Program-made: the position numbers and the translations under genes
Notes under the pieces: generated by a model
What the model saw: the letters and a program-made list of their open reading frames with translations, nothing else
The model's database searches: none
What the model was told of the DNA's origin: nothing
Assembly: GCF_016097555.1 (NCBI RefSeq)
Contig: NC_054704.1
Location: forward strand, 2,094,961 to 2,158,960
Length of the DNA: 64,000 nt
Direction of reading: 5' to 3'
From: Gigantopelta aegis
Lineage: Eukaryota; Mollusca; Gastropoda; Neomphalida; Peltospiridae
Shown here: piece by piece, positions 50,984 to 56,900 of the stretch
How positions within the stretch are numbered: position 1 is the first letter of the stretch
How the letters are laid out: each line of letters opens with the position of its first letter

Positions 50984-53900
50984 CTGGAACAGACAGGACA
51001 CACAGAGTCAACAACACATCTATAAGAACAGCAGATCTATAAGAACAACAGATCTATAACAACAGATCTATAAGAACAACAGATCTATAAGAACAATAGA
51101 TCTATAAGAACAACAACAAATCTATAATAACAACATCTGAAACCTCCCCTGAATCCCCTCCCTCTAGCTCAGCTGATAATATGGCAGGGTATGACAAACA
51201 TCTAATACTACTGTAAGAGAGAAAAGAGAATACTCCCCCCACACACTTACACACCTCAGCTGATAATATGGCAAGGTATGACAAACATCTAATACTACTG
51301 TAAGAGAGAAAAGAGAATACTCCCCCCACACACTTACACACCTCAGCTGATAATATGGCAAGGTATGACAAACATCTAATACTACTGTAAGAGAGAAAAG
51401 AGAATACTCCCCCCACACACTTACACACCTCAGCTGATAATATGGCAAGGTATGACAAACATCTAATACTACTGTAAGAGAGAAAAGAGAATACTCCCCC
51501 CACACACTTACACACACCATAAACAACAAAGGAGAATAGCACCTGAAACTTCCCCCCAACCCACCGCAGCTGATAATATGGCTAATATCTAATATTGTTG
51601 TAAGAGGAATAAGAGAATGACCTTCCCAACAATGAAGGGGACATTTAACTGATTTAAACATATATATAATATTACAATTTAAATTTGTATTCTTACAGAT
51701 CTTGTTTCTATGTATTCTAAACTTAAATATTTTCTAATAAAAGAACAAGCACCGTGGAATATTTTCATGTTGGGCAAGAGAACTAGATCATAGAACTTTC
51801 ACTTTCGTTTACAGCTGATGCTAGAACAATTACTACTGTTCACTATGTCTAATAAACACATACCTGGTGAACAGTAAACACACCCGGTAAACAAAAACAG
51901 TTATTACACATGCCAAGATGGTGCTGAATGTTATGATTCTGTGCTGATTTTATGATGTACCTCACCCACCTCTACACAAATTCATCAATGGAATTAGACC
52001 TTCATGAGTTCCATTCTGAGAGACACAAAATCTGCACATCTGTAGAAGATTGTCATCCATAATACAACAGGTCTGGCTGGGCTTTTGTTAAACACCCCCC
52101 CTCCACCCACACACACACAAACACCCACACACTCACCTGCAACCCAACCAAACAGTCATTCACCCACATCCACATACTCACCTACAACCCAACCAAACAC
52201 TCATTCACCCACACTCCTACCCATCTACTCACTCCATGGTCAAGAAAAGCTGAAGCAGATCAGGGAATGTCACATACAGAGATTTAAAATCATCGGCTTA
52301 TGGACATTTGGTACTGTTGACAAATAGTCTCAGAGAGGAAACCTGCTACATTTTTCCATTAGTAGCAAGGAATTTTGTATATGCACCATCCAACAGACAG
52401 AATAACACATACCACAACCTTTGATATACCAGCTGTGGTGCACTGACCGAACGAGAAATAGGTTGATGGGGATCCATCCTAGACTGACCGACAACCAGCC
52501 AATTGCTTTTCCATTGGGCTATGCTATGCTCCTGCTTTACATAAGGTAACTCTAATGGCTACTGTCAGCCCCACGTTTACCATGATAGAAAAGCTAAATA
52601 AAAATATCCTGGAATCAAATATGATCTTCAAGAATACAAAACACCAGACACCTGATCTCATGAATAGTTAGTGATGTCAGTCTGAATTAGAATACACAAC
52701 ACCAGACACCTGATGTCATGAATAGTTAGTGATGTCAGTCTGAATTAGAATACAAAACACCAGACACCTGATGTCATGAATAGTTAGTGATGTCAGTCTG
52801 AATTAGAATACAAAACACCAGACACCTGATCTCATGAATAGTTAGTGATGTCAGTCTGAATTAGAATACAAAACACCAGACACCTGATCTCATGAATAGT
52901 TTGTGATGTCAGTCTGAATTATAATACAAAACACCAGACACCTGATCTCATGAATAGTTTGTGATGTCAGTCTGAATTAGAATACAAAACACCAGACACC
53001 TGATGTCATGAATAGTTTGTGATGTCAGTCTGAATTAGAATACAAAACACCAGACACCTGATCTCATGAATAGTTTGTGATGTCAGTCTGAATTCACCCA
53101 CCTCCTCTGATGTGTCGCAATATTATTCAGTTGAGTGATCACCACTTTGGGTGAACACTGCATGTTATGTAGGGAACTGTTTGACATCTGTGAGGGCACT
53201 CTCAGAGAAACCTACCTGTTTGGCATCTGTGAGGGCACTCTCAGAGAAACCTACCTGTTTGGCATCTGTGAGTGCACTCTCAGAGAAACCTACCTGTTTG
53301 GCATCTGTGAGGGCACTCTCAGAGAAACCTACCTGTTTGGCATCTGTAAGGGCACTCTCAGAGAAACCTACCTGTTTGACATCTGTGAGGGCACTCTCAG
53401 AGAAACCTACCTGTTTGTAATCTGTGAAGGCTCTCTCAGAGAAACCTACATGTTTGACGTCTGTGAAGGCACTCTCAGAGAAACCTACCTGTTTGTAATC
53501 TGTGAAGGCTCTCTCAGAGAAACCTACCTGTTTGACATCTGTGAGGGCACTCTCAGAGAAACCTACCTGTTTGTAATCTGTGAAGGCTCTCTCAGAGAAA
53601 CCTACCTGTTTGACATCTGTGAGGGCACTCTCAGAGAAACCTACCTGTTTGGCATCTGTGAGGGCACTCTCAGAGAAACCTACCTGTTTGACATCTGTGA
53701 AGGCACTCTCAGAGAAACCTACCTGTTTGGCGTCTGTGAGGGCACTCTCAGAGAAACCTACCTGTTTGACATCTGTGAAGGCACTCTCAGAGAAACCTAC
53801 CTGTTTGACGTCTGTGAGGGCACTCTCAGAGAAACCTACCTGTTTGTAATCTGTGAAGGCTCTCTCAGAGAAACCTACCTGTTTGACATCTGTGAAGGCA

Positions 53901-56900
53901 CTCTCAGAGAAACCTACCTGTTTGACGTCTGTGAGGGCACTCTCAGAGAAACCTACCTGTTTGTAATCTGTGAAGGCTCTCTCAGAGAAACCTACCTGTT
54001 TGACATCTGTGAGGGCACTCTCAGAGAAACCTACATGTTTGACATCTGTGAAGGCACTCTCAGAGAAACCTACCTGTTTGGCATCTGTGAGTGCACTCTC
54101 AGAGAAACCTACCTGTTTGACATCTGTGAGGGCACTCTCAGAGAAACCTACCTGTTTGTCATCTGTGAAGGCACTCTCAGAAAAACCTACATGTTTGACA
54201 TCTGTGAAGGCACTCTCAGAGAAACCTACCTGTTTGACGTCTGTGAGGGCACTCTCAGACTTAACTTGGTCATCGTAACCATGCAGCAACAATTCCTTCT
54301 TCTTGAAGAACTCCAGTTGAAGCTGGCGATACCGCGAGGCCAAGTCCTTGTTTCGAACAAGAGCTACCTTCTTTTCATTCTGAAACACAACACACGAAAG
54401 TCTTCCTTTACAATGCAATGTAGAGAAAACAACACACGAAAGACTATACTATACTATGTCTTGCGAGGCCTAACTAAGTGTTGTACAAATAAATATACCT
54501 CGTGTCTTGTGAGGACTACCTAGGGTATAACTAAGTGCTGTACAAATAAATATACCTCATGTCTTGTGAGGACTACCTAGGCTATAACTAAGTGTTGTAC
54601 AAATAAATATACCTCATGTCTTGTGAGGACTACCTAGGGTATAACTAAGTGTTGTACAAATAAATATACCTCATGTCTTGTGAGGACTACCTAGGGTATA
54701 ACTAAGTGTTGTACAAATAAACATACCTCGTGTCTTGCGAGGACTACCTAGGCTATAACTAAGTGTTGTACAAATAAATATACCTCGTGTCTTGCGAGGA
54801 CTACCTAGGCTATAACTAAGTGTTGTACAAATAAATATACCTCATGTCTTGTGAGGACTATCTAGAGTATAACTAAGTGCTGTACAAATAAACACACCTC
54901 ATGTCTTGTGAGGACTACCTAGGCTATAACTAAGTGTTGTACAAATAAACATACCTCGTGTCTTGTGAGGACTACCTAGGCTATAACTAAGTGCTGTACA
55001 AATAAACATACCTCGTGTCTTGCGAGGACTACCTAGGCTATAACTAAGTGTTGTACAAATAAATATACCTCGTGTCTTGCGAGGACTACCTAGGCTATAA
55101 CTAAGTGTTGTACAAATAAATATACCTCGTGTCTTGTGAGGACTACCTAGGCTATAACTAAGTGCTGTACAAATAAACATACCTCGTGTCTTGCGAGGAC
55201 TACCTAGGCTATAACTAAGTGTTGTACAAATAAACATACCTCGTGTCTTGCGAGGACTACCCAGGCTATAACTAAGTGTTGTAACAATAAACACACCTCG
55301 TGTCTTGCGAGGACTACCTAGGCTATAACTAAGTGCTGTACAAATAAACATACCTCGTGTCTTGCGAGGACTACCTAGGCTATAACTAAGTGTTGTAACA
55401 ATAAACACACCTCATGTCTTGCGAGGACTACCTAGGCTATAACTAAGTGCTGTACAAATAAACATACCTCGTGTCTTGCGAGGACTACCCAGTCTATAAC
55501 TAAGTGTTGTAACAATAAACACACCTCGTGTCTTGCGAGGACTACCTAGGCTATAACTAAGTGTTGTAACAATAAACACACCTCGTGTCTTGCGAGGACT
55601 ACCTAGGCTATAACTAAGTGCTGTACAAATAAACATACCTCGTGTCTTGCGAGGACTACCTAGGCTATAACTAAGTGTTGTAACAATAAACATACCCCGT
55701 GTCTTGTGAGGACTACCTAGGCTATAACTAAGTGCTGTACAAATAAACACACCTCGTGTCTTGTGAGGACTATCTAGAGTATAACTAAGTGTTGTAACAA
55801 TAAACATACCTCGTGTCTTGCGAGGACTACCTAGGCTATAACTAAGTGCTGTACAAATAAACATACCTCGTGTCTTGTGAGGACTACCTAGGGTATAACT
55901 AAGTGTTGTACAAATAAACATACCTCGTGTCTTGCGAGGACTACCTAGGCTATAACTAAGTGTTGTACAAATAAACATACCTCGTGTCTTGCGAGGACTA
56001 CCTAGGCTATAACTAAGTGTTGTACAAATAAATATACCTCGTGTCTTGTGAGGACTACCTAGGCTATAACTAAGTGTTGTACAAATAAATATACCTCATG
56101 TCTTGTGAGGACTATCTAGAGTATAACTAAGTGCTGTACAAATAAACACACCTCATGTCTTGTGAGGACTACCTAGGCTATAACTAAGTGTTGTACAAAT
56201 AAATATACCTCGTGTCTTGTGAGGACTACCTAGGCTATAACTAAGTGCTGTACAAATAAACATACCTCGTGTCTTGCGAGGACTACCTAGGCTATAACTA
56301 AGTGTTGTACAAATAAATATACCTCGTGTCTTGTGAGGACTACCTAGGCTATAACTAAGTGTTGTACAAATAAATATACCTCATGTCTTGTGAGGACTAC
56401 CTAGGGTATAACTAAGTGTTGTACAAATAAACATACCTCGTGTCTTGCGAGGACTACCTAGGCTATAACTAAGTGTTGTACAAATAAATATACCTCGTGT
56501 CTTGTGAGGACTACCTAGGCTATAACTAAGTGTTGTACAAATAAATATACCTCATGTCTTGTGAGGACTATCTAGAGTATAACTAAGTGCTGTACAAATA
56601 AACACACCTCATGTCTTGTGAGGACTACCTAGGCTATAACTAAGTGTTGTACAAATAAATATACCTCGTGTCTTGTGAGGACTACCTAGGCTATAACTAA
56701 GTGCTGTACAAATAAACATACCTCGTGTCTTGCGAGGACTACCTAGGCTATAACTAAGTGTTGTACAAATAAATATACCTCGTGTCTTGTGAGGACTACC
56801 TAGGCTATAACTAAGTGTTGTACAAATAAATATACCTCGTGTCTTGTGAGGACTACCTAGGCTATAACTAAGTGCTGTACAAATAAACATACCTCGTGTC

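Follow-up and report, generated by a model that had tools for sequence, protein, structure and literature searches.

A 39-bp tandem array across the donor of a coiled-coil exon in Gigantopelta aegis, probably a boundary minisatellite whose later copies are intronic

In a minus-strand coiled-coil gene of the gastropod Gigantopelta aegis, the donor of exon F is the first of 27 near-identical donors in one open reading frame, which raises the question of whether the later copies are used. The preliminary description had offered two answers, a built-in ladder of splice choices and a neutral, buffered array. The window (the whole stretch of DNA analysed, 64,000 nucleotides) contains seven exons of this gene, A to G, from 63966 to 50648, with GT-AG borders; read in one frame, with exon A taken from 63960 when translated, they give the last 330 residues of the protein. 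The name "exon 6" first used for exon F fits its place as sixth among the window's exons, but further upstream exons lie in the regions L002–L004, hence it serves only as a label. The upstream exons X1–X5 are assigned to the gene by strand and neighbourhood, X5 also by a by-eye likeness to the relative P0001 introduced below.

The array runs from 54268 to 53177 on the minus strand as 28 in-register units, head to tail and without indels, and TRF reports it at 53177–54259 with 27.8 copies, 92% matches and 0% indels. One unit holds both the exon end (30 nt) and the intron start (9 nt), and the recurrence score at the exon F boundary is 40 of 40. Unit 1 is exonic (QVKSESALTDVKQ); its final 30 nt match the 39-bp unit, and its leading 9 nt (CAAGTTAAG vs GTAGGTTTC) match at 3 of 9 positions. 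The splice signal GTAGGT follows each of units 1–27, 24 times as CAG/GTAGGT and three times as CAT/GTAGGT (slash, splice border), and unit 28 runs into CAG/TTCCCT (TTCCCTACATAA), where the donor is absent. The exon frame shows no stop in 364 codons, vs 27 and 30 stops in the remaining two frames, and closes at a TAA beginning 9 nt past unit 28. The frame is open because the unit length is divisible by 3 and no stop occurs within it; the repeat is not a chance product, and the open frame is the property of one unit, repeated. Both the 28-fold repeat with its open frame and the retention of the donor by most variant units were thus correctly described at the outset. The gene model agrees, furthermore, that the donors share one phase; because exon G begins in phase 0, use of the nth donor would lengthen the protein by 13(n-1) residues. 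Between 0 and 26 extra 13-residue repeats are possible, the upper end being one below the figure of about 27 first given, and with the last donor exon F would reach about 1.2 kb.

A Pfam search with the 330-residue protein returned no family, and a PDB sequence search no structure. A protein search gave the relative P0001 (37% identical, E 7e-52), and a profile search, with 7991 candidates scored, gave a second relative, P0002 (39% identical); when the own genome was searched with P0001, only exon G matched (E 3.2e-5). The alignment of the three proteins is gap-free from its start in exon A or B to a point well inside exon G, across the junctions, and at the exon F/G junction DDQVKSESALTDVKQ/LHALQKRLH stands against DDRVKIEVQIKDTTQLQALQRRMH in the relatives. 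Both relatives lack the 13-residue repeats and join at the first-donor position. Since they are gap-free through the junction, the first donor yields the conserved protein, without added repeats; the segment that later donors would add, in frame and free of stops, has no counterpart in either relative. At 37–39% identity, P0001 and P0002 show the ancestral junction and not the transcripts of this animal, in which we infer that the first donor of exon F is used.

The comparison of synonymous and non-synonymous change proposed in the preliminary description gives, in units 2–28, ten distinct changes, of which 4 are synonymous and 6 non-synonymous, where about 26% and 72% are expected (P = 0.25 for 4 or more synonymous); coding constraint is not visible, and ten changes carry little power. 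All six intronic donor bases of the exon F array are invariant across the 27 copies, with a chance expectation of 18%, and the donor 9-mer changes at 0.012 vs 0.052 for the rest of the unit, although 0.41 of shifts of the 9-mer are equally low. Among nine arrays, each compared over at most its first 2500 nt, the 9-mer has a lower change rate than the remainder of the unit in five but not in the other four, with shift fractions from 0.16 to 0.92. Against dinucleotide shuffles, a donor motif excess at P of at most 0.1 is found in 5 of 30 arrays of the window (expected 3.0), 6 of 22 of the random regions (expected 2.2; three of the six are pieces of one L007 array) and 5 of 21 of the flanks (expected 2.1), as scored with a donor weight matrix that was not built from this genome. 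The donor motif excess in array units is at most weak.

The exon F array has company at other exon borders (Table 1). In the coiled-coil gene, the array at exon E exceeds 5 kb, and TRF counts about 95 copies in it, with 5 more adjoining the exon; its unit is a multiple of 3, yet the exon frame closes 6 nt past the donor. The plus-strand neighbour ("gene 2"), a papain-family (cathepsin-L-like) protease with an I29 propeptide, carries arrays over donors and acceptors alike. An alignment to procathepsin K crosses its exon 6/7 junction with a two-residue difference, as expected if the first donor is joined to the last copy of the acceptor. A further acceptor-spanning array lies at about 6216 of L004 (minus); its last copy is the genic one, as at the other acceptor arrays. 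Outside the two genes, a single piece (L007) among 20 drawn at random from the same chromosome has a donor array at the end of an exon matching U3snoRNP10 (E 1.5e-6; 29 bits, below the Pfam cut-off of 34.4), and 2 of 20 myosin-head exons have donor-spanning arrays (L029 and L032, on C1 and C8). In L029, nested arrays at 748–1113 (units about 20–24 and 71 bp) start from the myosin-head exon end and include larger copies with more exon.

Table 1. Exon F, its array and other boundary-spanning arrays (window positions unless a region is named)
Feature	Position	Strand	Remarks
exon F ("exon 6"), NEKKVALV...DDQVKSESALTDVKQ	54230..54379	minus	acceptor tttcag/AATGAA, donor AAACAG/gtaggt; relatives gap-free
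27 further 39-bp units, taken as intronic	53177..54229	minus	9 nt intron start + 30 nt exon end each
open-frame end after unit 28	53165..53176	minus	TTC CCT ACA TAA
exon G ("exon 7"), LHALQKRLH...	50648..50983	minus	phase 0, stop codon; relatives continue here right after exon F
exon E, coiled-coil gene	60241..60314	minus	57-bp array over donor (59960–60263, then 54471–59920)
exon D, coiled-coil gene	61161..61246	minus	79-bp array over donor (60810–61200)
upstream exon (X2 or X4), taken as coiled-coil gene	L004 2901		52-bp array over donor
upstream exon (X2 or X4), taken as coiled-coil gene	L003 9844		67–69-bp array over donor
exon 2, papain-family gene	12389..12584	plus	44/45-bp array over donor (12569–13258)
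exon 6, papain-family gene	26836..27025	plus	46/52-bp array over donor (about 27004–27961; first units by eye)
upstream exon, papain-family gene	L005 3448		64-bp array over donor
array at exon 7, papain-family gene	28925..29328	plus	58 bp, over acceptor; last copy runs into exon
array at exon starting 4330, papain-family gene	3891..4352	plus	52 bp, over acceptor

Several arrays lie near exon borders without spanning them. In the papain-family gene, arrays begin 4, 8 and 11 nt past the donors of exons 1, 5 and 3; exon 5 has a boundary score of 20, the frame test found no copy there, and it is excluded from the clear donor-spanning arrays. The run that begins about 8 nt past the exon 5 donor includes an array of 55 bp x 93 (21437–26543); the same gene holds one of 42 bp x 121 (14104–19239), and a 33-bp array of 24 copies (11574–12372) stops 17 nt short of the exon 2 acceptor. 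Arrays near donors in L041, L042 and L046, and near acceptors in L031, L037 and L039, were left out of the boundary-array counts. The exon X1 donor, considered by eye as a diverged boundary array, scores 9.5, within chance.

The exon frame was read through nine clear donor-spanning arrays and later through two more, 11 in total. In 10 of the 11, no downstream donor lies in frame before a stop, the 39-bp array being the exception; the first stop in these ten sister arrays comes 1 to 81 nt past the donor, and in the D, L007 and L032 arrays one donor precedes it, out of frame. The genes concerned include two with myosin-head exons, the papain-family protease and the gene with the U3snoRNP10-like exon, and their proteins therefore need the exon-proximal donor. 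Among the ten, the arrays at D, E, X2 and X4 cannot keep the frame, and the coiled-coil gene therefore relies on first-donor choice there. The chance that an array is in frame is roughly 0.29 (an estimate: one third for the length, with most of the rest stop-free in the short intron part), and at that rate a single in-frame array in a set of about ten is unremarkable (computed with 9).

These observations are very probably explained by a boundary duplication that grew into a 28-unit minisatellite. A tandem duplication would have happened to cross the exon–intron boundary and would have been tolerated because the exon-nearest copy still works; the duplicated segment would then have expanded, presumably by slippage or unequal exchange. 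The spliceosome would take the exon-proximal donor, and units 2–28 with their copied donors would become intron, growing and shrinking neutrally. The extra copies at exon F thus most likely lie unused within the intron. However, of two strong nearby 5' splice sites the intron-proximal one is often preferred, and such a preference would favour the later exon F donors, unless exon length limits it; exons well over 300 nt are poorly defined by the spliceosome.

A splice-choice ladder would require some use of the 27 donors, and the resulting isoforms would carry 0 to 26 extra repeats and share a C-terminus. The near-identity of the donors and a stop-free unit of a multiple of 3 ahead of a phase 0 exon are what it would need. 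However, the repeats are absent from both relatives, neither coding constraint between units nor special preservation of donor bases is visible, the four arrays of the same gene that cannot keep frame and the ten sister arrays as a whole are not in-frame ladders, and a 13-residue step does not match a heptad repeat. The evidence therefore favours the second of the two answers first offered, the neutral array, and the ladder is very unlikely. Leaky choice among 27 near-equal donors, which would produce a low-level ladder of protein length in 13-residue steps in this one gene, is similarly improbable; if a ladder did exist, its range would shift with each change in array length. The openness of all 28 units up to the TAA at 53165 would also suit a long retained exon, with the entire array translated to an alternative C-terminus, but this would lose exon G, which both relatives keep, and there is hardly any likelihood of it. 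Alternatively, the copied donors might act as RNA, for example as U1 snRNP sites suppressing premature cleavage in long introns, and several arrays do contain at least 20 copies of a good donor sequence. However, donor bases are overall not preserved more strictly than other positions of the unit (lower change in only five of the nine arrays compared), and a good donor is lacking from other long arrays, such as those of 42 bp x 121 and 25 bp x 33, which makes such a role highly improbable.

The window is rich in repeats. Tandem arrays (period at least 10) make up 30.8 of its 64 kb, and arrays (period at least 15) make up 6.6% of a random sample of the same chromosome (20 pieces of 10 kb, two with runs of N); the window sits 2.1 Mb from the start of its sequence. 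Dispersed elements also occur. One with a shared open stretch (YPIHV.STRL.DT.VL...) is found at 9470–9859 and 41011–41325 of the window, at 1184–1498 of L002 and at 6361–6765 of L007. A tRNA-like dispersed repeat (CGGCCTCGGTGG... GGTTCAGATCCCAGTC) at about 28500–28880 is presumably a SINE, by its resemblance. Open stretches resembling, by eye, pieces of retrotransposon reverse transcriptase/endonuclease lie on the minus strand at 31126–31674 of the window, 8266–9114 of L002 and 465–1927 of L007.

Of the 12 donors in the window, five (those of D, E, F and of papain-family exons 2 and 6) have downstream recurrences scoring at least 25, against 150 array starts among 6000 positions taken at random from the 113 kb around it (P 7e-6; without F, 4 of 11, P 1e-4); the window was chosen for the exon F array, and its 12 donors come from two genes. 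The difference from acceptors, 2 of 14, is not significant (P 0.20, computed with 13 acceptors; the papain-family exon 1 acceptor at 4330 was scored at 4331). Once the flanks and L007 are added, donors stand at 9 of 19 and acceptors at 3 of 19, a count biased because X1, X2, X4, exon 0 of gene 2 and L007 came from donor-motif arrays. The genome searched comprises 1.149 Gb in 5216 contigs, including 13 sequences of 35–121 Mb. Elsewhere in it, 2 of 40 myosin and kinesin exon ends recur, vs 6 of 431 donor-like control sites recurring as array starts (P 0.14); when control sites anywhere inside arrays are counted, the figure rises to 69 of 431, above that for the exon ends. The sample comprised the first 20 of 80 myosin matches on C1–C13 and the first 20 of 124 kinesin matches on C1–C15 without internal stops, the kinesin match C9:66115471 being omitted for its long open frame; several of the exons belong to one gene, and each donor was chosen by its score close to where the profile match ends, so that some will be wrong. 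Boundary arrays occur on several chromosomes, and support for a special attraction of arrays to exon ends is limited to the local region.

Among known systems, coding minisatellites with length variation exist, and the exon F array resembles them in its in-frame unit and open reading frame; however, its repeats are absent in two relatives and positioned after a usable donor. The closest likeness is to the boundary-spanning minisatellites named "mirages" in amphioxus, where, according to the excerpts of the two papers, regular splicing is undisturbed (Adh3, globins, TnC), and similar repeats are noted in PGBD5 (PMC3087553, PMC3902484); the mirage description also includes length instability along with normal splicing (PMC3902484). 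In those excerpts, as here, the unit lies over the exon–intron boundary, many units carry splice signals, and both 5' and 3' exon boundaries are affected. By this analogy, the exon F array is one of several boundary-spanning arrays of the mirage kind. The copy number of amphioxus mirages, however, is 2–7 where given, compared with tens here (28; about 95–100 at exon E); in addition, one of the present arrays is in frame, and they are known from DNA sequence. Among the open-licence papers listed, no report of mirages in an animal other than amphioxus was noted; the term also occurs in PMC4540964 and PMC9071541. In the model by which introns arise through tandem duplication of an AG/GT segment (Rogers, cited in PMC3087553; see also PMC4974935), as far as these excerpts describe it, tandem copies of an AG/GT-bearing segment are likewise involved, but the duplication at exon F seems to enlarge an existing intron. 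Earthworm metallothionein, in the part of the source concerned, has minisatellites in its first intron and duplicated fourth exons absent from transcripts (PMC12783039), a structure that differs from the exon F array.

Boundary minisatellites are thus present in number, at 5 of 12 donors of two genes, some with at least 20 intact donor copies, and the conserved proteins require the choice of one donor copy per array. This cautions against annotating boundary arrays as coding repeats. Each array is a natural experiment on how the spliceosome chooses among serial near-identical 5' splice sites, and the 39-bp array is the sole case here in which another donor choice would keep the frame and hence be visible as protein.
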